Assembly (NCBI GenBank): GCA_017649745.1
Contig: JAGCGE010000007.1
Span: forward strand, 1-11,129
Reading direction: 5' to 3'
Source of the DNA: Clostridiales bacterium
GTDB lineage: Bacteria; Bacillota_A; Clostridia; Saccharofermentanales; Saccharofermentanaceae
Length of the DNA: 11,129 nt
A program made the translations under genes and the position numbers. How positions within the stretch are numbered: position 1 is the stretch's first letter; each line of letters opens with the position of its first letter. Positions 1 to 11,129 of this stretch are shown here, one piece after another. The notes beneath the pieces were generated by a model. That model had not been told where the DNA came from. It searched no databases and was given only the letters and a program-made list of their open reading frames with translations.

Positions 1-494
1 GGAGATATCAGTGTAACTTTTACATCTGTTTTCCTGACCTCTTCGAAAAGGCTTCTGGCAAAGCTACGAAGGCCTGCTTTACACGCACCATAGCATGCGC
101 CATGAGGATTAACTGAATCAGCAGTGACTGACGAGATATAGATAAGATGTCCGCTCTTCCTCTGCTTCATCTTCTGAAGATAGAAGTTGGTTATCTCTAT
201 AGGACTTTGAAGATCGACTGCAACCATCTCATTTATCGCTTCCTGGCTTATATTCTCATGAAGTCCATAGTAAGCGCTTCCTTGCGAAAAGATTATGATA
301 TCCGGACACTCTATCGTCTTAAGAAGCTTAGTAACTGATGATCTATCTTGAAGGTCACATTGAATGAACTTGATATCAGGATAGCTGACCTTACTTATAT
401 CTCTGCCGATACCGATAACTTCGTGTTTTCCAGAAAGTGCCCTGGCACATGCCAGGCCGATACCTGAAGTAGCACCGAATACCAATACTTTCAT
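1..494 (-). CDS. Short-chain dehydrogenase/reductase (SDR), 3' end cut off by window edge
   Basis: About 164 N-terminal residues are visible and the frame stays open to the left edge, so the C-terminus is missing. The protein begins MKVLVFGATSGIG, a Rossmann dinucleotide-binding loop (residues 7-13, TGxxxGIG type). Arg31 just after the second beta strand would favour NADP(H), and Cys-Asp47-Leu matches the adenine-contacting position. The catalytic Ser is in ISS (Ser122) and the YxxxK pair is Tyr135 and Lys139, the classical spacing of 13 between Ser and Tyr. Two family positions deviate: the usual NNAG after strand 4 reads FSQG (69-72), and the active-site Asn of helix 4 appears as Asp94. The substrate cannot be told. 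The start is fixed by a strong GGGAGG seven bases upstream (502-507). Its ATG overlaps the TAA stop of the upstream radical SAM fusion by one base (TAATG), suggesting coupled translation. Family assignment is firm; the specific role is unknown. Confidence 0.9.
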   Translation of the reverse strand, partial: MKVLVFGATSGIGLACARALSGKHEVIGIGRDISKVSYPDIKFIQCDLQDRSSVTKLLKTIECPDIIIFSQGSAYYGLHENISQEAINEMVAVDLQSPIEITNFYLQKMKQRKSGHLIYISSVTADSVNPHGACYGACKAGLRSFARSLFEEVRKTDVKVTLIS

Positions 495-2296
495 TATTGA
501 TCCTCCCAGATAAAGATCTTGTCCTCAGGTACGTATGATGATACCTTCGCTCTAATAATTTCTATCATTTTTTTCGAGATGTCGCCATAATGAGACACAC
601 CATTCTCAGAGATGAACGGGAAAGCGACAGCAGGAGTTAACGGTCTTCTCTTACGCATGAGTTTCAGGTAATCTGTCGAGATCCTGAAGACGCCGATACT
701 TACATCATAGACACTGTCAGAAGGTATTACCGAGAACACCTTATCGACCAGATTCAGATAGTCCTTCTCCCAGTTTCTGTAATATATCATAGGATCAAGG
801 CATACCCTGATCTTAAAGCCCTTATCAGAACAACTCTTCATCGCAGCAAGTCGCTGGTCTAGCGGAGCCGTTTTCCTCTCTATCTTCGTTATAGTCTCAG
901 GAGATAAAGTCCACGCGAAAATGACTCTGTCAGAAGGTTCGAATCGATCGAAAATACGCGGATTACCGCTCTTAGTCCTGATCTCGATCGTAAGATCCTT
1001 ACGAGTCTTTACTGCCTCTATGAACTTACCGACAAAACCGAACATGTGCTCAGCAGCCAGAAGATCAGTGTCATATGAGACACAAAGATACATCGGATGC
1101 TTTAGAAGTATCTCATCTATCTCTTTAAGGATATCTTCGAAAGATGTAAACGCAACGACATTACCTGTTGGATACATACCGCAAAGATAGCAATAATCGC
1201 AATCGAACATACAGTTCATCATACATGAACAATAGTAGAAATGCTCGTTTCCGAAGCTTTGACAGACTCTTGCTCCTTCATAGATATACTGACCTCTCTG
1301 ACGCGAGAGTATAAGTGCCGGTGATCTCTTTTGAATATCAAAATCCTGATGAGTACGATTGAATATATCCTTATAAGAGTCGATCCTGATAACGTTCTTA
1401 TTATCAAAAGGAACTTCTACATCTTTCTCTGCATAAACATTAGTAAAAGGAGGATTTAATCCCTCTACTTTGCTCCAGTTATCAGTATCAAGATCCGAAT
1501 TCAAGGTCAGTTCCGTAATGATCTTATCAAACAGTTCTTTCTTAAATGCTTTCGTATTATTTTCGAAAAGGATATCTGATACGAACGAAAGATCTGTATC
1601 AAGACCATTAAGTTTCCTATAAAAGATGACTCTCTTAAGCTTATTGCACATGGTCTCGGTCAGGCAGAATTTCTCTTTTACCAACTCGACATCGATATCA
1701 TCCATGCTCATATCACTTTTAGTTATATCAAGACTAACTGCAAAGTCGATTATAGCTTTTGCATGCTGCTTGATAAGCTTATAAGGCTCTATCTTCTTGT
1801 CAGCAACCTTAGTCCCATCGAAAACATCAGATACAACTTTAAAGAAGAACATCCTATCCAAAGTAAAATACGGAACAAAGGATTCATAGAGCATGGAAGA
1901 TTCCATGTCATAAAGCCCTGTTCCATCATCTGCAGGACGCAATACGGTAGTTATTGAAGACTGTGCAAACGAATTCTTATAGATAAGATCTGGATAGTAT
2001 GTCCTACCTGAAACATGATCGGTTATCTTGTTTATGAGATAAAGATCTCCGATATTCCCAAATGACGAACCGCAAATACCGACATTAATAACTATCGAAT
2101 CGGAATCAGGTTCATGAAGCGCAAAATGGCGAGAACTGTTTCTTAAACAAGAAACAAGTCCTTCGCCAACGATTACGACTTCGAAGCCATCTGAAACGAA
2201 ATGCTGATAGATATGTTCATCAGCTCTCTTCTTAAGACCAAGTATCTCTATAAAAGGCCTGGCCTCTTCGTAGATGGCAGTTACAAAAGTTATCAT
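494..2296 (-). CDS. Fusion protein: nucleoside phosphorylase/nucleosidase-like domain plus SPL-like radical SAM domain
   Basis: 600 residues in one uninterrupted frame. Residues 1 to about 190 resemble the purine nucleoside phosphorylase/MTA-SAH nucleosidase fold: a VVIVGEG strand (40-45), NVGICGS (71-77), GDLYLIN (83-89), then DME (130-132) and SD (156-157), which correspond to the Met-Glu ribose-binding and Ser-Asp base-binding signatures. Residues 190-300 are a mostly helical linker of unknown type. Residues 300-600 are a radical SAM domain of the spore photoproduct lyase type: cluster motif CMFDCDYC (Cys362, Cys366, Cys369), followed by Tyr370, and a later block with PLDQR (478-482) and DP-x6-NWEKDY (501-513) that parallels PLDKR...EGWEEGY of SPL. 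By my alignment the SPL catalytic Cys position is Tyr408 (SYDTDLLAAEH), with Cys405 nearby. Such an enzyme would bind a 4Fe-4S cluster and SAM in the cytosol; the substrate is unknown, perhaps a modified or damaged nucleoside. The start follows the UPF0210 stop by one base, with only a weak GAGAA ribosome site. Confidence 0.85.
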   Translation of the reverse strand: MITFVTAIYEEARPFIEILGLKKRADEHIYQHFVSDGFEVVIVGEGLVSCLRNSSRHFALHEPDSDSIVINVGICGSSFGNIGDLYLINKITDHVSGRTYYPDLIYKNSFAQSSITTVLRPADDGTGLYDMESSMLYESFVPYFTLDRMFFFKVVSDVFDGTKVADKKIEPYKLIKQHAKAIIDFAVSLDITKSDMSMDDIDVELVKEKFCLTETMCNKLKRVIFYRKLNGLDTDLSFVSDILFENNTKAFKKELFDKIITELTLNSDLDTDNWSKVEGLNPPFTNVYAEKDVEVPFDNKNVIRIDSYKDIFNRTHQDFDIQKRSPALILSRQRGQYIYEGARVCQSFGNEHFYYCSCMMNCMFDCDYCYLCGMYPTGNVVAFTSFEDILKEIDEILLKHPMYLCVSYDTDLLAAEHMFGFVGKFIEAVKTRKDLTIEIRTKSGNPRIFDRFEPSDRVIFAWTLSPETITKIERKTAPLDQRLAAMKSCSDKGFKIRVCLDPMIYYRNWEKDYLNLVDKVFSVIPSDSVYDVSIGVFRISTDYLKLMRKRRPLTPAVAFPFISENGVSHYGDISKKMIEIIRAKVSSYVPEDKIFIWEDQ

Positions 2297-2297
2297 A

Positions 2298-3656
2298 TTA
2301 GTTTCTCATGCTATGAATTGGAGCCGGGATCCTTCCACCACGATTGATGAAATCAGCGCATGAAGCTGTATTAACAGGCATGATCGGAGCAGTTCCGAGA
2401 AGACCACCAAATTCAACCTCATCACCTACACCCTTACCAGGTACAGGAATGATACGAACAGCAGTAGTCTTATTGTTAAATGTTCCGAGAGCCATCTCAT
2501 CAGCGATGATACCGGATATCGTAGTAGCATCAGTATCACCAGGGATAGCGATCATATCAAGACCTACTGAGCATACACATGTCATAGCTTCAAGCTTCTC
2601 AAGCTTAAGGCAGCCTGACTTAGCAGCAGCGATCATACCCTCATCCTCAGATACAGGAATGAAAGCACCTGAAAGACCACCTACGAATGAAGAAGCCATC
2701 GTTCCGCCCTTCTTAACTGCATCATTAAGCATTGCAAGAGCAGCTGTTGTACCCCAAGTACCGCACTCTTCAAGACCGAACTCTTCAAGAAGTCTTGCAA
2801 CTGAGTCACCTACTGCAGGTGTCGGAGCAAGTGAAAGGTCAATGATACCAAATGGTACACCAAGTCTCTGTGAAGCTTCTCTAGCAACAAGCTCACCTAC
2901 ACGTGTGATCTTAAATGCAGCTTTCTTGATAGTCTCGGCTACAACACCAAGATCCTGACCCTTAACAGACTCAAGAGCGTGCTTAACAACACCAGGACCT
3001 GAAATACCAACATTAATAACACACTCAGGCTCACCAGGTCCCAGGAAGGCACCAGCCATGAACGGGTTATCTTCAGGAGCATTCGCGAAAACAACGAGCT
3101 TAGCACAACCTAATGCACCTCTGTCTGCTGTTCTCTCTGCAGCTCTTTTTATGATGACACCCATATCTCTTACAGCATCCATATTGATACCTGTTCTTGT
3201 GGATGCAAGATTAACTGAAGAACAAACGAAATCAGTTACAGCCAAAGCCTCTGGGATAGAATCGAGCAAGATCTTATCAGAAGTTGTATAACCCTTCTGA
3301 ACAAGAGCTGAAAAACCACCGATAAAGTTTACTCCACAAGCTTTAGCAGCCTTATCAAGTGCAACAGCGAAAGGAGTATAATCCTTAGCTCCGCATGCAG
3401 CTGCAACAATAGAGATAGGAGTTACCGATATTCTCTTATGGATGATCGGCACATGATATTTACGTGAGATCTCCTCACCTACTTCAACAAGACGACCTGC
3501 ATATTTGCAGATCTTGTCATAGATCTTCTGACAGGATTCTTCAACAGTAGATGCTGAGCAATCCATCAGGTTGATACCCATTGTAATTGTACGAATATCA
3601 AGATGTTGCTCAGAGAACATCCTGGTAGTTTCTAATATTTCAAAATCAGTAATCAT
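2298..3656 (-). CDS. UPF0210 (DUF711, PFL-like) family protein
   Basis: 452 residues, the usual length for UPF0210/DUF711. The sequence matches the family throughout: start [14 protein letters not shown], an early [13 protein letters not shown] block (21-33), [11 protein letters not shown] (75-85), the glycine loop FIGGFSALV (111-119), [16 protein letters not shown] (145-160), [10 protein letters not shown] (215-224), and late glycine-rich blocks including [13 protein letters not shown]. No signal peptide or membrane segment is seen, so it should be cytosolic. The family has been linked by fold to pyruvate formate-lyase-like proteins, but I see no activating glycyl radical system here and no reaction is established. 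Its gene follows the ACT-domain gene by 8 bases, with a GAGGTG ribosome site that overlaps the ACT stop codon. This ACT-UPF0210 pairing recurs widely in Bacillota and suggests the small protein senses a ligand for, or binds to, this one. Confidence 0.95.
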
Positions 3657-3664
3657 AAGCCACC

Positions 3665-3943
3665 TCAGATCCTGTGCATAGCATTAAACAGATCAGTATG
3701 CTGGATAGTGATCTGAACACCAAGCTCATCACCAAGTTTATTAAGCTTCTCAACAATGTCAGACTTCTCGATAACAACATCCTTAAGATCAACCATCATG
3801 ATCATTGTAAAGAGGTTATCGAGGATTGTTTGTGAAATATCTTTTATATTGATCCCCTCGTCAGCAAGAAGATTAGAGACACCGGCAATGATGCCTACAC
3901 GATCAACTCCGACAACGGTAATTACAGCAGTATTTTTGGACAT
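3665..3943 (-). CDS. ACT domain-containing protein, UPF0237 family
   Basis: 92 residues from the chosen start ([18 protein letters not shown]...). It is a single ACT domain (beta-alpha-beta-beta-alpha-beta): the first strand [25 protein letters not shown] is the classic ACT opening, and the internal strand [10 protein letters not shown] follows the family pattern. ACT domains usually bind amino acids or act as dimerising regulatory modules; no catalytic domain is attached. The ATG at 3943 is preferred because UPF0237 proteins begin just before the first strand. An AAAGGAG lies at 3954-3960, ten bases upstream. An in-frame ATG two codons earlier (3949) would have a spacing of only four bases and cannot be excluded. 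A longer start at 3985 would lack a ribosome site and add an unconserved hydrophobic stretch. It is first in the block ACT, UPF0210, radical SAM fusion, SDR, and is preceded by the only sizeable gap in the window. Confidence 0.92.
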
Positions 3944-3952
3944 AATCATCAG

Positions 3953-3990
3953 ACTCCTTTTAATAAAGATTGTTATGATCAACAAGGAGT
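3953..3990 (-). promoter_or_regulatory. Inverted repeat covering the ACT gene ribosome binding site
   Basis: In the minus-strand transcript ACTCCTT (3990-3984) is the exact complement of AAGGAGT (3959-3953), which contains the ribosome binding site of the ACT gene. Between them, TTGTT (3985-3981) can pair with AACAA (3974-3970) around a six-base loop, sharing two bases with the outer arm. Read-through RNA from the upstream genes could therefore hide the ribosome site. RNA started at the candidate promoter (near 3984) would lack the ACTCC arm. There is no T-run after the structure, so it does not look like a terminator. The effect on expression is inference. Confidence 0.4.
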
Positions 3991-4019
3991 ATTATATACC
4001 AATTCAGATGTATTTTGAA
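3991..4019 (-). promoter_or_regulatory. Candidate sigma-A type promoter for the ACT-UPF0210-fusion-SDR block
   Basis: On the minus strand a perfect TATAAT lies at 3996-3991. At 17 bases spacing upstream is TTCAAA (4019-4014), four of six matches to TTGACA, overlapping the end of the FAD-dehydrogenase gene. Transcription would begin near 3984 and leave a leader of roughly 40 bases before the ACT start. This is the only sizeable intergenic gap in the window, which supports it; the -35 is weak and AT-rich chance matches are common. Confidence 0.45.
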
Positions 4020-5617
4020 ACGAGCGCATTCGCACATTTGATGCCATCAATGGCAGATGAAGTTATACCTCCTGCATAACCGCATCCCTCACCGCATGGG
4101 TAAAGACCAACAACATTTGTACTCATAAAAGATTCCTTATCACGAAGGATCCTGACTGGAGAAGAACTTCTCGCTTCAACAGCTGTCAGAACAGCATCAT
4201 CAGCGTCAAAACCATTGATCCTTCGTCCCATCTTAACTATTCCATCCTTAAGAGAATCACAGATGATCTTAGGGAATAATTCATTAAGATCAGATGGAGT
4301 AACAGAAGGCTTATAGCTTGGCTTTATTCTTCCGAATCCTTCAGGTTTCTTATTCTCAACAAAAGCTTTAAAAGTCGTAGCAGGTGCACTGTCATTTGAA
4401 CCCGCGATCTCATATGCCTTACCTTCCAGCATCTCCTGAAATTCGATTCCTGCCAATACACCTTCACCATAGATCTCGCTGTCTACCGGAACAAGCAAAG
4501 CGGAATTGGAGTTTTCCATATCACGAGCATAATAGCTCATTCCGTTAGTGCAGATCGATCTCCAAGAAGAAGCACCTGCAACTACTTCGCCACCCGGACA
4601 CATACAGAATGTATAGAGTTTTCGACCAGTAACAGTATCTACTGCGAGCTTATATGATGCTGAAGAGATATCGTGATAGTTAGCTGTATCAAAACCGTAC
4701 TGTGCCATGTCGATATCCTTACGAAGATGTTCGATACGTACGCCAACGGAAAAAGGCTTGTTCTCCATATCAACTTCTGCTTTATTGAGCATTCTAAATG
4801 TATCCCTGCTGCTATGACCTATAGCAAGGATAATATCATCAGCTTCTTCATCATACGGATCCTGACCCCAGTCATAATCGAACCCTTTGATCTTACCGTT
4901 TTCGATATTAAGATCATAAAGAGTCGCACCGAAAAGAATATCACCGCCAAGCGATTGGATCTCTTTACGGATATTGACTACCACATTTCGAAGATTATCA
5001 GTTCCGATATGAGGATGAGAATCATATTTGATATCTGAAGGTGCACCGAATTCGACAAAAGTATCAAAGATAAACTGCTTATAAGAATCCGATATACCTG
5101 TGTGAAGCTTACCATCAGAGAAGGTGCCTGCACCTCCCTCACCGAATTGAACATTATTGTCAGGATCAAGTGTCGCCTTACCAGCTTTATATGCCTCAAC
5201 ACGTCTGACTCTATCTTCCATACTCATCCCGCGATCAAGGATAAGTGGCTTTAATCCGTATCTAGCAAGGATCAGTCCAGCGAACATACCTGCAGGACCA
5301 AAGCCAATAATAACAGGCCTTTTAGGCATATTGATCTTGGCATCCTTATACTTAAAAACCGAATCCTTAAGTTCATTATCCCTCTTAGCGAACTCGCTTC
5401 CAGAAAGGATCTCAACTTTATAATTTATAACTGTCTTCGGCTTACGTCTGGCATCAATAGATTTCTTAATGATGCGAAGTTCTTTATTGCCGTTCTCGAC
5501 AGACTTGATACCGTCACGCATGGCACCGTTACCTGTCTTAAGCTTATAAGTGATAGCAGCGTATTCATTCTGAAAATGATTCAACTCATCAGGAAAGAGC
5601 TTTAAGTCAAACGTCAT
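4004..5617 (-). CDS. COG2509-type FAD-dependent dehydrogenase (uncharacterised NAD(P)/FAD-dependent oxidoreductase)
   Basis: 537 residues from the chosen ATG. An N-terminal region of about 95 residues precedes the FAD fold, as usual in this family. The dinucleotide loop GFGPAG is at 105-110, followed by ILARYGLKPLILDRG, whose Asp would hold the FAD ribose. Family hallmarks follow: QFGEGGAGTFSDGKL (157-171), DIILAIGHSSRDT (261-273), MCPGGEVV (339-346) and the C-terminal FAD-contacting block GLYPCGEGCGYAGGITSSA (504-522). No membrane segment is seen; it should be a soluble flavoprotein. The substrate is unknown for the family. The ATG at 5617 is chosen because AAAGGAG (5624-5630) lies six bases upstream, whereas the longer ATG at 5638 has no ribosome site. 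The start overlaps the end of the upstream flavoprotein gene by 11 bases, so the two are probably translationally coupled and of related use. Confidence 0.93.
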   Translation of the reverse strand: MTFDLKLFPDELNHFQNEYAAITYKLKTGNGAMRDGIKSVENGNKELRIIKKSIDARRKPKTVINYKVEILSGSEFAKRDNELKDSVFKYKDAKINMPKRPVIIGFGPAGMFAGLILARYGLKPLILDRGMSMEDRVRRVEAYKAGKATLDPDNNVQFGEGGAGTFSDGKLHTGISDSYKQFIFDTFVEFGAPSDIKYDSHPHIGTDNLRNVVVNIRKEIQSLGGDILFGATLYDLNIENGKIKGFDYDWGQDPYDEEADDIILAIGHSSRDTFRMLNKAEVDMENKPFSVGVRIEHLRKDIDMAQYGFDTANYHDISSASYKLAVDTVTGRKLYTFCMCPGGEVVAGASSWRSICTNGMSYYARDMENSNSALLVPVDSEIYGEGVLAGIEFQEMLEGKAYEIAGSNDSAPATTFKAFVENKKPEGFGRIKPSYKPSVTPSDLNELFPKIICDSLKDGIVKMGRRINGFDADDAVLTAVEARSSSPVRILRDKESFMSTNVVGLYPCGEGCGYAGGITSSAIDGIKCANALVSKYI

Positions 5618-6797
5618 ATAAAGCTCCTTTGATCGCATCAGCTACGGCAAAAGCAGAACTCCATGCCCATTGCAGGTTGTAGCCACCGCAAGGACCGTCA
5701 ACATTAACTGCTTCGCCGATAACATAAAGTCCTTTAACTCTGGTCTCCAGAGAAGAACTTAAACATGTGAGCATAACGCCGCCTCTGGTTACCTGCGCAT
5801 TATCAAAATTCTGAGTTCCGGAGATCTTTATCCTAAAGTTATGAAGCTCATTTATAAATCTCTTTATCTCTGATTCAGTTGTGATCTTTTTACAGTTGAG
5901 TCTCTTAAGAATCACTTCAGTAAGGACATCAGGAAGAATGCCAATAAGAGCATCTTTGGTCTCTCTTTTCGGAAACTTCAGGATACGCTCCCTTATGTCG
6001 TCTTCATTATCAATGAGATCAACGATAACGGTATTCTTACCCTCTTTGATGTACCTCGAAAGCTGCATGATACAGATACCTGAGATACCATAATCAGTAA
6101 AAAGCAATTCACCCTTCTCGGAAGCAGTTATCTTGCCATCGTTTTCGAGCATTACCTTAGAAGCAAACCTGTAACCGCTAAGTCTCTTAAGATCTCTGTC
6201 AGAAGAACAAAGCTGCACTAACACAGGCCTTACAGGAGCGAAATCCTCTTTAGGGATCATGCAGTTCAAGAGCTTAAAGCCGGAACCGTCACTGCCGGTA
6301 TTCGGATATGAACATCCACCGGTAGCAATTACAAGATACTTACTGTTATATGAATCGTCAGCTGTCTTAATCTCGAAAAGATCATCAGACTTGACGATAT
6401 ATTTAACCTTGGAATTAAGCTTGATATCGATGTCATCCAGATAAAAACGCAGAACATCGATGACTGAAGAACTCTTGAGAGTAATAGGATATACAAGACC
6501 TTCTTTATTGATAGTCTTTAACCCCATCTCTTTTTCGAAAAAACTAAGAGTATCAGTTACAGGATATTTACCGAAGATCTCGTCAATTATAAGACTGCTA
6601 TCTGAATAATAATTCTTAGGATCGATCTCGGTATTAGTGAGATTACACCTGCCGTTACCAGTGATAGCAAGTTTTTTACCAACCTTGGAATTGGAATCAA
6701 GAAGAAGTATGTTCTTGATTCCCAAGAACTTCAGCCTCGCGGCACACATCAATCCTGAACTACCCGCACCGATAATTATCGCATCGTATAAAGACAC
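5607..6797 (-). CDS. HI0933/BaiN-like family NAD(P)/FAD-dependent oxidoreductase, GTG start
   Basis: 396 residues, the normal length for HI0933-family flavoproteins. The N-terminus DAIIIGAGSSGLMCA gives the GxGxxG FAD loop (10-15), then the family signature GKKLAITGNGRCNLTN (40-55). Further matches are ATGGCSYPNTGSDGSGF (158-174), GELLFTDYGISG (229-240), AQVTRGGV (334-341) and the C-terminal GEAVNVDGPCGGYNLQWAW (361-379). It is a soluble FAD enzyme; members have been named BaiN/RdsA, but no bile-acid genes are present here, so that role should not be transferred. The start is a GTG placed directly after the TAA of the CYTH gene, with GAGGAG six bases upstream (6804-6809) overlapping that gene's end. 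No ATG gives the complete FAD strand. The next flavoprotein gene starts inside its last codons. Confidence 0.94.
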   Translation of the reverse strand: MSLYDAIIIGAGSSGLMCAARLKFLGIKNILLLDSNSKVGKKLAITGNGRCNLTNTEIDPKNYYSDSSLIIDEIFGKYPVTDTLSFFEKEMGLKTINKEGLVYPITLKSSSVIDVLRFYLDDIDIKLNSKVKYIVKSDDLFEIKTADDSYNSKYLVIATGGCSYPNTGSDGSGFKLLNCMIPKEDFAPVRPVLVQLCSSDRDLKRLSGYRFASKVMLENDGKITASEKGELLFTDYGISGICIMQLSRYIKEGKNTVIVDLIDNEDDIRERILKFPKRETKDALIGILPDVLTEVILKRLNCKKITTESEIKRFINELHNFRIKISGTQNFDNAQVTRGGVMLTCLSSSLETRVKGLYVIGEAVNVDGPCGGYNLQWAWSSAFAVADAIKGALYDV

Positions 6798-7460
6798 TTA
6801 AGACTCCTCTTCAAGAAGCAATAAACAACGCTTAAACTTACTGTCATTGGAGAACTTGGCATTAGTCTTACTAACGATATAGTTAGCCATATCCATAAGG
6901 TCAACTACATCACCTGAGATAAGTTCAAGTTCAAGCTCACAGATAGGTTCTGACTTATCTCCTGCTGAGAGCTTACCTACATCAAAACAAGCTTCCATAA
7001 TGGAGTCGCCATAACCGAAAGTATATACAGTACGATTGAATTTAGTCTTACACAAAGGAATGAGTTCATCTTCATCGATACCATCGAGAGCACTCGTAAG
7101 GATATCAGAAGGATCCTCACTTCTGGAGATACCTTCAAGGAATTCTTCCTTATCAAAATTCTTGGAAAAAGTCTTTACATTCCACTCGTAACGCTGATGA
7201 AGACCGTTCTCAACCTTACCGCCGAGCTTGATGGTATGCTCATATGTCTCTTCCTCTTCATCTGAATCGGAAATATTACGAACTCGGATGGAACCGCCTC
7301 TCTTGATCATCTTGTGATCAGGCGTATCGTAATAAGTGCTAGACAGTTTAACTGCCTCCTGATCCTCATGTTCCATACAGATATTATAGAACCAATCGGC
7401 ATCAAGTATCCCAAATAATTCTTCTTCGTCCTTAAATGTTAATTTGTATTCTGTCTCCAT
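6798..7460 (-). CDS. CYTH domain protein (triphosphate tunnel metalloenzyme family)
   Basis: 220 residues. The N-terminus METEYK supplies the defining ExExK motif (Glu2, Glu4, Lys6). Next come TYYDTPDHKMIKRGGSIRVR (42-61), the family YYDT...L/I..R...R.R block; HTIKLGG (75-81); a KFNRTVY strand (140-146); ACFDVG (157-162); and ELELE (175-179), which supplies further acidic metal-binding residues. CYTH enzymes form a beta-barrel tunnel lined with Lys/Arg and Glu that binds triphosphates with Mg or Mn; known activities include tripolyphosphatase, thiamine triphosphatase and class IV adenylate cyclase. The charged tunnel residues look intact, so it should be active on a triphosphate, most likely inorganic or organic triphosphate hydrolysis, but the substrate cannot be read from sequence. 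There is no CHAD domain. A ribosome site AAGGA sits five bases before the ATG, within the 8-base gap after the upstream gene. Confidence 0.92.
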   Translation of the reverse strand: METEYKLTFKDEEELFGILDADWFYNICMEHEDQEAVKLSSTYYDTPDHKMIKRGGSIRVRNISDSDEEEETYEHTIKLGGKVENGLHQRYEWNVKTFSKNFDKEEFLEGISRSEDPSDILTSALDGIDEDELIPLCKTKFNRTVYTFGYGDSIMEACFDVGKLSAGDKSEPICELELELISGDVVDLMDMANYIVSKTNAKFSNDSKFKRCLLLLEEES

Positions 7461-7468
7461 ATTATTCC

Positions 7469-8605
7469 TTAATAAGTATAGGTGTGAACTCCACCCGTTG
7501 ATACGACTATTACCTTATCGTTACCGATAAAGCCAACTTTTAAAACATCCTCATCAACAGAAATATCTGAAATGACATTACCATCACTGTCTATGACAAA
7601 TATTCTTCTGTCAACGCTTATAACGCATTTGTCCTTATATGTATTGAATGCGTTAACTACACTTCCTAAAACTGAATCGTAAACGATATTATTCCCACTG
7701 TCAATAACAGCGATCTTATTGACCTGTCCTACTCCGTCAGAGTAGATAAGGAAAAGATTATCCTCTACATTATAACAATAATTTATCGATCCGTACTGAA
7801 CATTTAAAGCAGAGATCGCTTCACCAGTTACTACATAAGCACTGTCACTGCCGAACACAAGGAATCTGTCTCCGCAATAAAGGATCGTGGACAACATATC
7901 ATCCTTTTCAGACGAAAAGATCGCATAATCAGCCGCAACCATCTTGCCCTGATCTTCTTTAATGTTTAACAGTTTGATATAAGGCTTAAGAATTGCACCA
8001 TTAGTGTTTACCGTAGTTATAGCAAGAACAGTAGTATCACTATTGAAACACAATGATACAGGATAGCCTGAATCCTGTGAGAGCCATTTATTCGAGAATA
8101 ATGTTCCGTCAGGTTCACATAGTATTACCTGACCATAAGCATCTTCACTGTCCAGTATTACAGCTGCATAGCAGTCGTTCGATAAAGCAGCACCCTTAAC
8201 CTTATCAGATGTAGACTTGCTATAGATCTGACCGTCAGCATCATATACAGAGAAGGCATAACCGTCAAGATCACCTACCAAAGCATAATCACCGCCGAAA
8301 ATACAGAACGGATTAGCATAATTCACATTTACACTATATGCCTCATTACCGGATGATGTAAGATAAGCAACTCTGTCAGTAGTTACCTTCAAAACACCAT
8401 CTCTGAACGGATAAAGTTTCTGTGCTTCCGCAAATTCGCATGAGAAACCGGATTGTGCAGAAAGTCTTACAGAACTATCTGCACCTTCAAGGGATGACTG
8501 CTTCTTGGAAACAAAAAACAAGAGAATCAGACTTCCAATAACGATTACAATGAAGACACTCATTGCGATGAGAAGTTTTTTCTTGATCGTCTTACCATCA
8601 TCCAT
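7469..8605 (-). CDS. Membrane-anchored beta-propeller-like protein, probably DUF5711 family
   Basis: 378 residues from the chosen ATG. A short basic N-terminus (KTIKKK) precedes one hydrophobic segment (about 11-32), giving a signal-anchor with the rest outside the membrane. The outer domain consists of repeated short strands with Asp/Gly turns (for example LVGDLDGYAFSVYDADGQ, VIDSDGNVISDI and YLTSSGNEAYSV), as in WD40/PQQ-like beta-propellers; there are no catalytic motifs or lipobox. This matches my memory of the clostridial DUF5711 family; the family name is less sure than the architecture. The ATG at 8605 follows AGAGGAA by seven bases (8613-8619) and overlaps the end of the DUF4340 gene by 8 bases. 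The longer in-frame start at 8689 would lie deep within that gene and add a non-signal sequence. It probably works with the GldG/DUF4340 pair at the cell surface. Confidence 0.75.
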   Translation of the reverse strand: MDDGKTIKKKLLIAMSVFIVIVIGSLILLFFVSKKQSSLEGADSSVRLSAQSGFSCEFAEAQKLYPFRDGVLKVTTDRVAYLTSSGNEAYSVNVNYANPFCIFGGDYALVGDLDGYAFSVYDADGQIYSKSTSDKVKGAALSNDCYAAVILDSEDAYGQVILCEPDGTLFSNKWLSQDSGYPVSLCFNSDTTVLAITTVNTNGAILKPYIKLLNIKEDQGKMVAADYAIFSSEKDDMLSTILYCGDRFLVFGSDSAYVVTGEAISALNVQYGSINYCYNVEDNLFLIYSDGVGQVNKIAVIDSGNNIVYDSVLGSVVNAFNTYKDKCVISVDRRIFVIDSDGNVISDISVDEDVLKVGFIGNDKVIVVSTGGVHTYTY

Positions 8606-10070
8606 TGCTTGATTCCTCTGTAGGTATGTCATAGATGTTATTGGAATTCTTTTCACTGATCGCTGTAGTAAGCAGATCATAAGCACCAATTATACCGTAA
8701 CTGTACAACTGATCACCGGCATCTTTTGTAAGAGACTTCTCATATACATAGAATCCCGTATATTCACCGTCTTTCATTACATAATATGATGCTGAATCTC
8801 TCTGAATAAATGAGAGCTCTACGTGCGTTAAATCCTTATTGTAAATCGTGATCTTCATGAACGGATCACCGCTTGGAACATCACCCAAAGCAATACCGCC
8901 GATCTTTATACAAGCGATCTTCTCAAAGAATACAGACGCATAACATTTTCCGTAGGAATTCATGATCTTAGCATCTCTGCCATCAAGGAAGACTTCTGCC
9001 TCTTCTGAATCAAGAGCTCCTGTAGTATCGATAGTAAGATCAAAAGACCTGTTATCAAACTCACCTGTTATTTCCTTAACATCATAAGCATGGAAATAGT
9101 AAACATAATCATAAACAAGATTAAGTTCAGGCATATCAATATCAGGAAGCTGCTGAACACTTACCATGAAGTACTCGTCACTCATTGTTCCCTTACCATA
9201 GAAGAAACCGTCCTGAGCCTTAGAAAGATAGAATTCTTCCTTACTTCCGTCATTCTTTGTAAAGCAGAAATGATATGACGGATCATCAAGACCATATTCT
9301 TTAACCTTATCATCGGTAAGATTTACAAAAGAAGCAATCTCAAACTCGCTCATCGACGCAAGAAGATTAGTAAACTCAGATCCTGTCTGAATCTGATATG
9401 GTTCTTCAATAATGAAGATAACACCGTTTTCAGTATTTTCAGGCTTAATCGAAAGCTTGATATTATCAGCCTTTCTCTCGAAAACAACATTAGATACTTC
9501 GTTATAATCGATTCCAAGCTTGATAGTTGCATAGAAATCAATTGCTGTATAAGAACACATCTGCTTTTTAAGAGTAGTGATCGTATAAACATTTGGATCA
9601 CCGTCAAGAGCAATGTAGCTTCCGGAACCGTCAACAACATCATTACCGATCATTAATGTCTTGGTCTCACCTGAAGCAAGGCTGATCTTGATAGTACATT
9701 CAGGCGCATCAAGACCATAGTCAGCAAGATTAGGAGATTCGACATTAAGCTTTGAAGATGCAACATAATCAAGCATGATCTTCAGGTAACTTGTAAACTT
9801 ATCCTGTGAAAGCAAGGACTGATCATCGTAATTAAGTGTAAAAACAGGATCTTTTCCGTTCTCAACAACACGTGTGATAATGAGAGGCTCCTTATCCTTA
9901 CGTTCGATCGTAAGATTAGTAATATCCTCTGGAGCACATTTAACCAATTGAAAACTTGTAGGTTCCTCTTCAGGCTTGTTCTTATCTTTTACGACAAAGA
10001 CAATTACTATTGCCACGATAAGTGCCAACAAGATCAAAAATGGTATTAAAAGATTCTTTAATGATTTCAT
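8598..10070 (-). CDS. DUF4340 domain-containing membrane-anchored protein
   Basis: 490 residues. A basic start (MKSLKN) and one hydrophobic segment (about 7-27) followed by KDKNKPEEE make an N-terminal anchor with no lipobox cysteine; the bulk is extracytoplasmic. Two copies of the DUF4340 unit are visible: each has ITNLTIER/VSNVVFER-type strands, then YGLDAP (118-123) or YGLDDP (259-264), followed by a strand pair of the form I-x-L-x-SGE-x-K-x-L-x-IG or F-x-K-x-DGS-x-EEFYLS. This tandem form is common in Clostridia. DUF4340 genes habitually follow GldG genes of ABC-2 type transporters and may form the outer part of that complex; the function is not established. The start lies 17 bases after the GldG-like stop, with GGAG about 11 bases upstream, somewhat distant. 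Confidence 0.88.
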   Translation of the reverse strand: MKSLKNLLIPFLILLALIVAIVIVFVVKDKNKPEEEPTSFQLVKCAPEDITNLTIERKDKEPLIITRVVENGKDPVFTLNYDDQSLLSQDKFTSYLKIMLDYVASSKLNVESPNLADYGLDAPECTIKISLASGETKTLMIGNDVVDGSGSYIALDGDPNVYTITTLKKQMCSYTAIDFYATIKLGIDYNEVSNVVFERKADNIKLSIKPENTENGVIFIIEEPYQIQTGSEFTNLLASMSEFEIASFVNLTDDKVKEYGLDDPSYHFCFTKNDGSKEEFYLSKAQDGFFYGKGTMSDEYFMVSVQQLPDIDMPELNLVYDYVYYFHAYDVKEITGEFDNRSFDLTIDTTGALDSEEAEVFLDGRDAKIMNSYGKCYASVFFEKIACIKIGGIALGDVPSGDPFMKITIYNKDLTHVELSFIQRDSASYYVMKDGEYTGFYVYEKSLTKDAGDQLYSYGIIGAYDLLTTAISEKNSNNIYDIPTEESSNG

Positions 10071-10087
10071 CTAAATTCCAACTCCGA

Positions 10088-11129
10088 TCAAAGATGTGAT
10101 CTTCTGTAATATACAAACCAAGCCATGAATACGAATGCAAGTGGGATAAATGCAAGGAAGATAATACTTACTGTAGAAATAGTATTCTGATTTACCTTGC
10201 TGGCATCAATATCAAAGTTCTCCATCTGCTTATCAGGGATACTTGCACTGTTAGAAGTTGGGAAGAACTTGGAAAGCATGGATCTTATAAGCTGATTATT
10301 CTCATCATTGGATGATTTTGAATAAAAATACTCATCAGATGTGAAATAATCAGAACCAAATACCAAAACGCTTACATTATGGGAAAGTCCTTCAGTATAA
10401 GCATACATAGCTGCATTAGCCTGAACGTCTGACTGAGCTACTTCATTCTCCTTAGTTGAGTTAACAAAGTCGTACAAAACAGCCTTATCAGATGAAACTA
10501 CAACAGGCTCACAGTTAATATCAGATCTGCTGCCGGAAAGAACAACATTACGTGAAAGACGATAGAAAGCAAATCCGGTTGTATTAAGATCTTTATAGTT
10601 ATCTGTAAGAACACCCTTATACTTACCTGATTCATAATCGATAATGTTAGAAGGTTCCTGATCCATAATACAATTATTCTCAACTTTGAGGTTCATCTCG
10701 TTAAGAACGTTATTGATATTAGTAAAGTCCTGATTTGTATTATTTGTATCAAGTCCGAGAGAAACAATAAGTTTGCTTACTTCTCCAGGTTTAGCATTCC
10801 AGAGATAATCCTTGATTGCCTCCTGAACATTCTCAGGAATATCAACATCAGGATTAAGGATCATAAGAAGATCACAATCATCAGGAACAACAAAGTTAGC
10901 ATTATTAACTGAGAGTTCTTCCATATCAATATTCATAGAAGCGAATACTGAATCAAGGAACATATGTGAAGTTCCCTGAATGTCAGAAAGATAATATACC
11001 TTGTACTGGCTCTCGGAAGTAACATTGATGATCGAGTTGATAAATGCACTTTCAACCTTATTTACTGAAGGATACCAGTAATTGTATGTAGCAAGAATCT
11101 GCTCATCTGCACCGAAACAATCATACTGA
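10088..11129 (-). CDS. GldG-like ABC transporter accessory protein, 5' end cut off by window edge
   Basis: The frame is open to the right edge, giving 346 visible residues; a Met codon at 10963 is internal, since upstream codons (ending ...KVYYLSDIQGTS) read smoothly in the same frame. The fragment shows the GldG/DUF4350-type middle: an ESAFINSIINVTSESQYKVYYLS segment like the EQxLTxAIxYVT...KVYxLTGH block of the family, then VPDDCDLLMILNPDVDIPENVQEAI, a Rossmann-like strand-helix pair typical of these proteins, and finally a C-terminal membrane helix (FLAFIPLAFVFMAWFVYY) ending YRRSHL on the cytosolic side. GldG-like proteins accompany an ATPase and ABC-2 permease in putative export complexes. 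The missing N-terminus should carry another membrane helix and the transporter genes should lie further right. Confidence 0.85.
   Translation of the reverse strand, partial: QYDCFGADEQILATYNYWYPSVNKVESAFINSIINVTSESQYKVYYLSDIQGTSHMFLDSVFASMNIDMEELSVNNANFVVPDDCDLLMILNPDVDIPENVQEAIKDYLWNAKPGEVSKLIVSLGLDTNNTNQDFTNINNVLNEMNLKVENNCIMDQEPSNIIDYESGKYKGVLTDNYKDLNTTGFAFYRLSRNVVLSGSRSDINCEPVVVSSDKAVLYDFVNSTKENEVAQSDVQANAAMYAYTEGLSHNVSVLVFGSDYFTSDEYFYSKSSNDENNQLIRSMLSKFFPTSNSASIPDKQMENFDIDASKVNQNTISTVSIIFLAFIPLAFVFMAWFVYYRRSHL

Follow-up and report, generated by a model that had tools for sequence, protein, structure and literature searches.

A nucleosidase coupled to a radical SAM enzyme of the spore-photoproduct-lyase fold: an apparently undescribed enzyme system in Clostridiales

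Why would a nucleosidase and a radical enzyme share one polypeptide chain? The question is raised by a stretch of 11,129 nucleotides (the window), positions 1 to 11,129 of contig JAGCGE010000007.1 in assembly GCA_017649745.1 of a Clostridiales bacterium. Here a gene of gut-type Clostridia encoding 600 residues, one uninterrupted frame on the minus strand (494-2296), joins a domain resembling the 5'-methylthioadenosine/S-adenosylhomocysteine (MTA/SAH) nucleosidases (MTAN) to a radical S-adenosylmethionine (SAM) domain resembling spore photoproduct lyase (SPL). The initial annotation, made from the sequence letters, had proposed this fusion, and it is borne out with all motifs at the positions given then. 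The predicted structure (mean pLDDT 89.4, pTM 0.85) assigns residues 1-190 to an MTAN fold and residues 285-600 to an SPL fold. The answer developed below is that the two proteins are almost certainly functional partners and that the nucleosidase probably acts on something the radical half makes.

The fusion is not peculiar to this assembly. A homolog search returned 648 proteins at E ≤1e-5 among 7997 candidates scored, and both domains are present in 119 of the best 120 proteins listed, which speaks against a chance fusion or an assembly artefact and disposes of the concern that it might be confined to one genome. Both domains are also spanned by 33 further aligned homologues. The search was restricted to proteins of similar length, so 119 of 120 is not a measure of how frequent the fusion is; for the same reason a count of 0 nucleosidase-bearing proteins among 120 split radical SAM proteins was discarded, the length limit excluding fused ones. 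The single exception among the 120 (P0009) corresponds to the last 336 residues of the window's own protein: the gene caller of the source database begins the gene at a TTG at 1502-1504 (minus strand), giving the radical half alone, although no stop interrupts the frame back to residue 1.

How the two genes are arranged was read from species genomes. A scan with a single sequence as query found no loci; an alignment-based scan confirmed 361 stretches, and the best 80 were kept, so that all counts of fused, split and neighbouring genes describe a top-ranked sample. In 21 of these loci the two parts are fused, in 57 they are neighbouring open reading frames (ORFs), one (L027) is broken and one (L058) begins inside the gene. 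The fusion, real as it is, is a minority form of a conserved two-gene pair, and the pair is mostly accompanied by a gene for a short-chain dehydrogenase/reductase (SDR). In the tree the 22 fused rows (the 21 and the window) are scattered, with at least 5 label changes by parsimony, of which strongly supported branches require 2, so that the two genes have probably been joined or separated more than once. The window groups with L001-L005 and L008 in a clade whose members are all fused. Two loci come from Scybalocola metagenome-assembled genomes (MAGs): L009 is fused among split kin and could be a recent fusion or a MAG frame error, and L048 is split with a 4-base gene overlap. In L027 and G052 (L102) stops break the nucleosidase part and the radical SAM frame is long; the SDR of L027 is also in pieces.

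The case for a partnership comes from the distribution of the two proteins. In the Clostridiales genomes, radical SAM proteins of the family score 344 bits or more with the radical SAM part of profile A1, other SPL-like matches scoring below 80; the order and phylum labels of the genome samples, which include Clostridium tyrobutyricum (G007), Catenibacillus scindens (G001) and an Opitutales MAG (G453), are our own assignment. Of 194 such genomes, 47 have the radical SAM family and the identical 47 have the nucleosidase, with 0 discordant, and a separate search with the nucleosidase-only profile A2 (E 1e-20) gave the same 47 of 194 when the sets were compared by script. In Lachnospirales the family is found in 27 of 246 genomes, and 21 of these hold the nucleosidase part or the fusion at E 1e-30; three others (G215, G234, G435) have a very divergent nucleosidase-like match (27-38 bits) adjoining the family-level radical SAM gene, and one (G339) has a nucleosidase match on a different contig. 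In Verrucomicrobiota the family is present in 5 of 288 genomes and the nucleosidase in all 5, once about 3 kb off; a sixth listed genome (G568) has a weaker SPL-like match and is excluded from the 5. In G500 a further gene and a distance of about 3 kb separate the pair, in G444 the two lie on different contigs, and this retention of both genes after unlinking argues for a common function. Judged by sequence, it is almost certain that the nucleosidase and the radical SAM enzyme form a functional partnership.

A third gene often belongs to the arrangement. Downstream of the pair and in its orientation, 64 of the 78 kept loci with room have an SDR of one family, and in 56 of those 64 it overlaps the pair or lies within 50 bases of it (longest-ORF starts); in the window, the SDR ATG shares one base with the stop codon of the fusion. 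Fourteen of the 78 loci have no adjoining SDR, two of which (L002, L027) hold SDR pieces below the 150-aa filter. Within Verrucomicrobiota, G573 has three genes in a row and L024 and L053 lack the SDR. The classical signature, TGxxxGxG with Ser, Tyr and Lys, is complete in the SDR alignment (G8, G12, G14, S128, Y141 and K145 in 61/61). Its nearest solved relatives are generic and include clavaldehyde dehydrogenase and farnesol dehydrogenase, which fits carbonyl-alcohol chemistry and leaves the substrate unspecified.

The other neighbours, a minority of which were annotated, all look local. The second commonest family (18 loci) consists of ABC transporters, going by three members scanned. Ten further non-SDR neighbours gave nucleotidyltransferases, PNPOx, an SSF transporter, a MiaB-like protein, guanylate kinase, Sir2, PALP and one without a match, and seven more gave ABC transporters, MatE, an RNA methyltransferase, solute-binding and permease proteins and MFS. 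In four MAG loci (L029, L033, L036, L038) the SDR is absent downstream, and two members of a single family stand immediately upstream; in L036 these are PF00483 nucleotidyltransferases, which we take to be GlgC/GlgD-like.

What, then, does the radical half act on? It had been described as SPL-like, and the SPL fold stands; however, it belongs to a separate family, distinct from classical SPL, and the findings speak against DNA photoproducts as its substrate. It shares with SPL (TIGR04070; PDB 4fhc-4fhg, 4k9r, 4rh0) the fold, the CX3CX2C motif, the Tyr pair of CxYCY and the conserved Lys442, Glu473 and Arg482. The three cluster cysteines are found in 81 of 81 radical SAM rows, as is Tyr368, while Tyr370 is kept in 76 and replaced by Phe in the other five. 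Against this stand 6-7 extra residues before the cluster, the linked nucleosidase and SDR, and invariant pocket residues of its own, R497, D501 and, in 79 of 81 rows, Cys499 (Cys405 is found in 75 of 81). E438, R440, R497 and D501 are each constant in 81/81 rows; none of the nine SPL-like rows used for comparison, six above the SPL cut-off ("true" SPLs) and three below it, has the same residues at these positions. The radical active site looks intact, with a pocket unlike that of SPL.

Repair of DNA photoproducts, as in SPL, would be consistent with the retained fold, cluster and Tyr pair, and with a cysteine, Cys345, that could be a shifted hydrogen donor. The SPL equivalog TIGR04070 has a cut-off of 400 bits; the window protein scores 53.2, the copies at the locus reach only 48-100 in each of 20 genomes, and 6 of these genomes have a separate true SPL as well. 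Further, the pocket residues are unlike those of every comparison row, and the putative hairpin, a segment whose identity we infer, has 17-18 residues in 81/81 rows versus 25 in the six true SPLs and 21 in the three SPL-like rows. In SPL the beta-hairpin helps to flip the lesion into the site (PMC6268316). SpoIVA is present in 15 of the 23 genomes with the family and was found in none of the other 8, which include three Verrucomicrobiota and three closely related MAGs with the fused gene, a count open to MAG incompleteness; a link to sporulation was set aside on this ground. DNA photoproduct repair is in our judgement largely refuted, and hardly credible as the function. The source names of many members are 'SPL family radical SAM protein', 'radical SAM protein' and 'spore photoproduct lyase', and some proteins with the last name are probably misnamed. 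A further SPL-like family (L095, L096, L097; 232-242 bits, below the SPL cut-off) occurs in the genomes of L017, L018 and L056 (Anaerocolumna, Galacturonibacter) and has a motif of its own, CSAMCLYCYLVC, read in two rows.

In the alignment the family has no Cys at either known donor column. At the position of Geobacillus SPL Cys140 (Bacillus subtilis Cys141), 79 of the 81 rows have Tyr and 2 have Phe, and the nine comparison rows have Ser or Ala. Another column, which has Cys in 6 of 6 true clostridial SPLs, is Gly in 80 of 81 family rows; in agreement with this, clostridial SPL is reported to rely on another donor, C74 (PMC5368176). In SPL without the donor Cys141, or without Tyr99, SAM regeneration is reportedly lost and 5'-deoxyadenosine (5'-dAdo) formed one-to-one with product (PMC3742179), so a family with Cys at neither column may release 5'-dAdo at every turnover.

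The catalytic acids of the nucleosidase are kept in nearly all of 79 rows (E11 in 77, E132 in 78, D157 in 76), and alignments to solved structures place the DMEA stretch on the EMEA of MTANs and VSD on their VSD or ISD. These acids match what we take to be the MTAN catalytic positions Glu12, Met173-Glu174 and Ser196-Asp197. Glu11 falls on Glu12, which presumably activates water, and D157 on Asp197, which presumably protonates the purine N7 and so indicates adenine or hypoxanthine as leaving group. This active site, too, looks intact. Aligned with hhalign to four clostridial Pfs proteins, 16 split homologues gave 96.9%, the full fusion profile only 68.0%. The domain assignment proposed in the initial annotation holds by profile for the split relatives, where 5 of 5 homologues reach the PF01048 (PNP_UDP_1) gathering score of 25.1 with 25.6-51.1 bits; the window protein itself gave no PF01048 match. 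The domain thus shares with Pfs/MTAN the fold and the three acids, but it lies far under the curated Pfs cut-offs: the best scores of five split homologues are 42.5 bits with PRK05584 (cut-off 169) and 26.9 with TIGR01704 (cut-off 73.8). It also has an additional helical C-terminal segment, which in the split relatives is part of the nucleosidase protein (57 split ORFs of 262-360 aa, median 286).

Our reading, to which we give a probability of roughly three in four, is that the nucleosidase handles an adenosine-containing product of the radical half. Free 5'-dAdo is the likeliest single candidate for this product, though short of even odds. The radical half would act on a small molecule and not on DNA, using one SAM per turnover and releasing 5'-dAdo. 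The fused nucleosidase would immediately split this into adenine and 5-deoxyribose, which would relieve product inhibition and draw the reaction forward, and the SDR would then reduce a carbonyl group (aldehyde or ketone) of the radical product or of the freed sugar. MTANs cleave 5'-dAdo, and accumulated 5'-dAdo inhibits SAM enzymes (PMC10986504, PMC6079011). The dihydroxyacetone phosphate (DHAP) shunt, or 5-deoxyribose salvage, likewise has a nucleosidase that treats 5'-dAdo; it requires a kinase, an isomerase and an aldolase (not searched for here), whereas the SDR is the only constant neighbour seen. Removal of 5'-dAdo had been put forward in the initial annotation and stays among the leading explanations. 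However, a housekeeping Pfs above cut-off is encoded elsewhere in 17 of the 20 genomes with the locus (G005 has one only below cut-off, G017 and G019 none), so the removal would need to be dedicated and local.

Several observations weigh against this reading. Since Pfs is present in 17 of 20 genomes, a nucleosidase dedicated to 5'-dAdo would seem superfluous. Nor do true clostridial SPLs have Cys at the Cys140 position, so its absence alone means little, and Cys345 (78 of 81 rows) lies four columns from the clostridial donor column, next to an alignment gap; together with the kept Tyr368 and Tyr370 it may allow SAM regeneration. Two of the 27 Lachnospirales genomes (G224, G419) have only weak nucleosidase matches on different contigs. 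In three loci (L035, L045, L065) the nucleosidase next to a family-level radical SAM gene lacks one or more catalytic acids, and these proteins are perhaps structural partners only, or decaying. The stretch from the glycine strand to the catalytic Glu has a median of 70 residues (60 in the window) versus 101-102 in Pfs, usually some 30-40 residues shorter, and the pocket may therefore differ from that of Pfs. Strict pairing and a mostly compact pocket would be natural for a nucleosidase that has its own substrate, for example an adenosyl adduct.

That possibility is the main rival. The substrate would be unsaturated, and the radical half would attach the 5'-deoxyadenosyl radical to it; the nucleosidase would strip adenine from the futalosine-like adduct, and the SDR would act on the freed sugar carbon. 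The nucleosidase would then be an obligate step of the pathway, which would account for all three genes and for a dedicated nucleosidase persisting beside Pfs. There is a precedent in MqnE, the radical SAM enzyme of the futalosine pathway, and MqnB. Futalosine hydrolase models match the five split homologues with scores close to those of the Pfs models, and among the best 50 matches listed by Foldseek (the whole model being the query, as in the VIA search, also with its best 50 listed) the top target-normalised TM score of any nucleosidase for the N-terminal domain belongs to the compact chlamydial CT263 (0.70-0.76), which we take to be a futalosine hydrolase. However, the scores are far below the cut-off of the futalosine hydrolase model TIGR03664, at most 40.4 bits of 124.7 in the five homologues and 12.8 in the window; 5 of the 79 nucleosidase rows are not compact, being as long as Pfs or longer in the stretch before the catalytic Glu; the partner has an SPL fold and is not MqnE, with which MqnB shares its pathway; and we know of no radical addition by an SPL-fold enzyme. 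We consider the adduct route unlikely, though worth keeping in view. Its fullest form is less likely still: a new pathway of futalosine type in which an SPL-fold enzyme would make an adduct with SAM's 5'-deoxyadenosyl group, adenine would be stripped and the SDR would finish the ribose-derived chain, the sugar of SAM serving as a building block.

The initial annotation had also suggested a two-step reaction on a damaged or modified nucleoside. The part of this that places the nucleosidase in the pathway of the radical half is retained as a leading view, while a nucleoside or nucleotide as the substrate itself, altered by the radical half and cleaved by the nucleosidase or in reverse order, now ranks as an improbable rival. 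A glycosidic-bond enzyme and a relative of nucleobase repair in one chain would suit such a substrate, and the invariant charged residues E438, R440, R497 and D501 fit a polar one; but no annotated neighbour points to it, and in most loci the SDR alone adjoins the pair.

A nucleosidase paired with a radical SAM enzyme in Clostridia also recalls queuosine salvage, in which QueK is followed by the queuine lyase QueL (PMC11477304, PMC11570991). In Clostridioides difficile these genes form the operon queK-qrtT-queL under a preQ1 riboswitch (PMC11477304), and QueK belongs to family IPR023186 (PMC11130926). The nucleosidase here has the PNP/MTAN fold, a contrast drawn by fold assignment, IPR023186 itself not having been searched. 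We take IPR023186 to be the inosine/uridine hydrolase family. Protonation of N7 is unsuited to a 7-deazapurine. Where the C. difficile operon has a transporter gene and a riboswitch, the present loci have an SDR gene (ECF transporter genes were not searched for), and Rfam at gathering thresholds, preQ1 riboswitch included, gave 0 matches in the window and 20 loci, some of which are short upstream. TGT is encoded in 20 of 20 genomes, but also in 14 of 14 control genomes, and is barely informative. A QueK/QueL-like role is very improbable.

The features of the window are collected in Table 1. Upstream of the fusion on the same strand (2298-10963) lie genes for an ABC_transp_aux-like protein (under cut-off), DUF4340, DUF5711, CYTH, an HI0933-like protein, an FAD-dependent protein, an ACT domain and DUF711; the DUF711 family (f13) is upstream of the fusion both in the window and in L001-L005. 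PADLOC gave 0 matches to defence systems, and PHROGs gave a single unnamed family, over the radical half only.

Table 1. Fusion gene, its domains and motifs, and the adjoining SDR gene, in window coordinates.
Feature	Positions	Strand	Basis
Fusion gene, 600 aa: nucleosidase, helical segment, SPL-like radical SAM	494..2296	minus	open frame
MTAN/PNP-type nucleosidase domain, residues 1-190	1727..2296	minus	
Glu11, aligns with MTAN Glu12	2264..2266	minus	alignment to solved MTANs
Asp130-Met131-Glu132, aligns with MTAN Met173-Glu174 region	1901..1909	minus	alignment to solved MTANs
Ser156-Asp157, aligns with MTAN Ser196-Asp197	1826..1831	minus	alignment to solved MTANs
Helical segment, residues 191-284	1445..1726	minus	DSSP helices in predicted structure
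SPL-fold radical SAM domain, residues 285-600	497..1444	minus	model
CX3CX2C cluster motif, residues 362-369	1190..1213	minus	
C-V-S-Y, residues 405-408; Tyr408 at Geobacillus SPL Cys140 position	1073..1084	minus	alignment
SDR oxidoreductase gene, truncated by window edge	3..494	minus	PF00106, 89.8 bits

Both domain families were already known. The paired or fused arrangement with an SDR is not named in the open-licence literature searched, which is no proof of its being unpublished, and it looks like an undescribed enzyme system; the module of nucleosidase, radical SAM enzyme and SDR suggests, on sequence grounds, an undescribed metabolic pathway. The pair of nucleosidase and radical SAM enzyme is present in 47 of the 194 Clostridiales genomes, roughly one in four of those sampled. 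If the nucleosidase processes an adduct, the pathway would be new. If it clears 5'-dAdo, the chain would itself remove the by-product that inhibits radical SAM chemistry, an old idea that could be tested on one polypeptide, with natural split and fused forms to compare.

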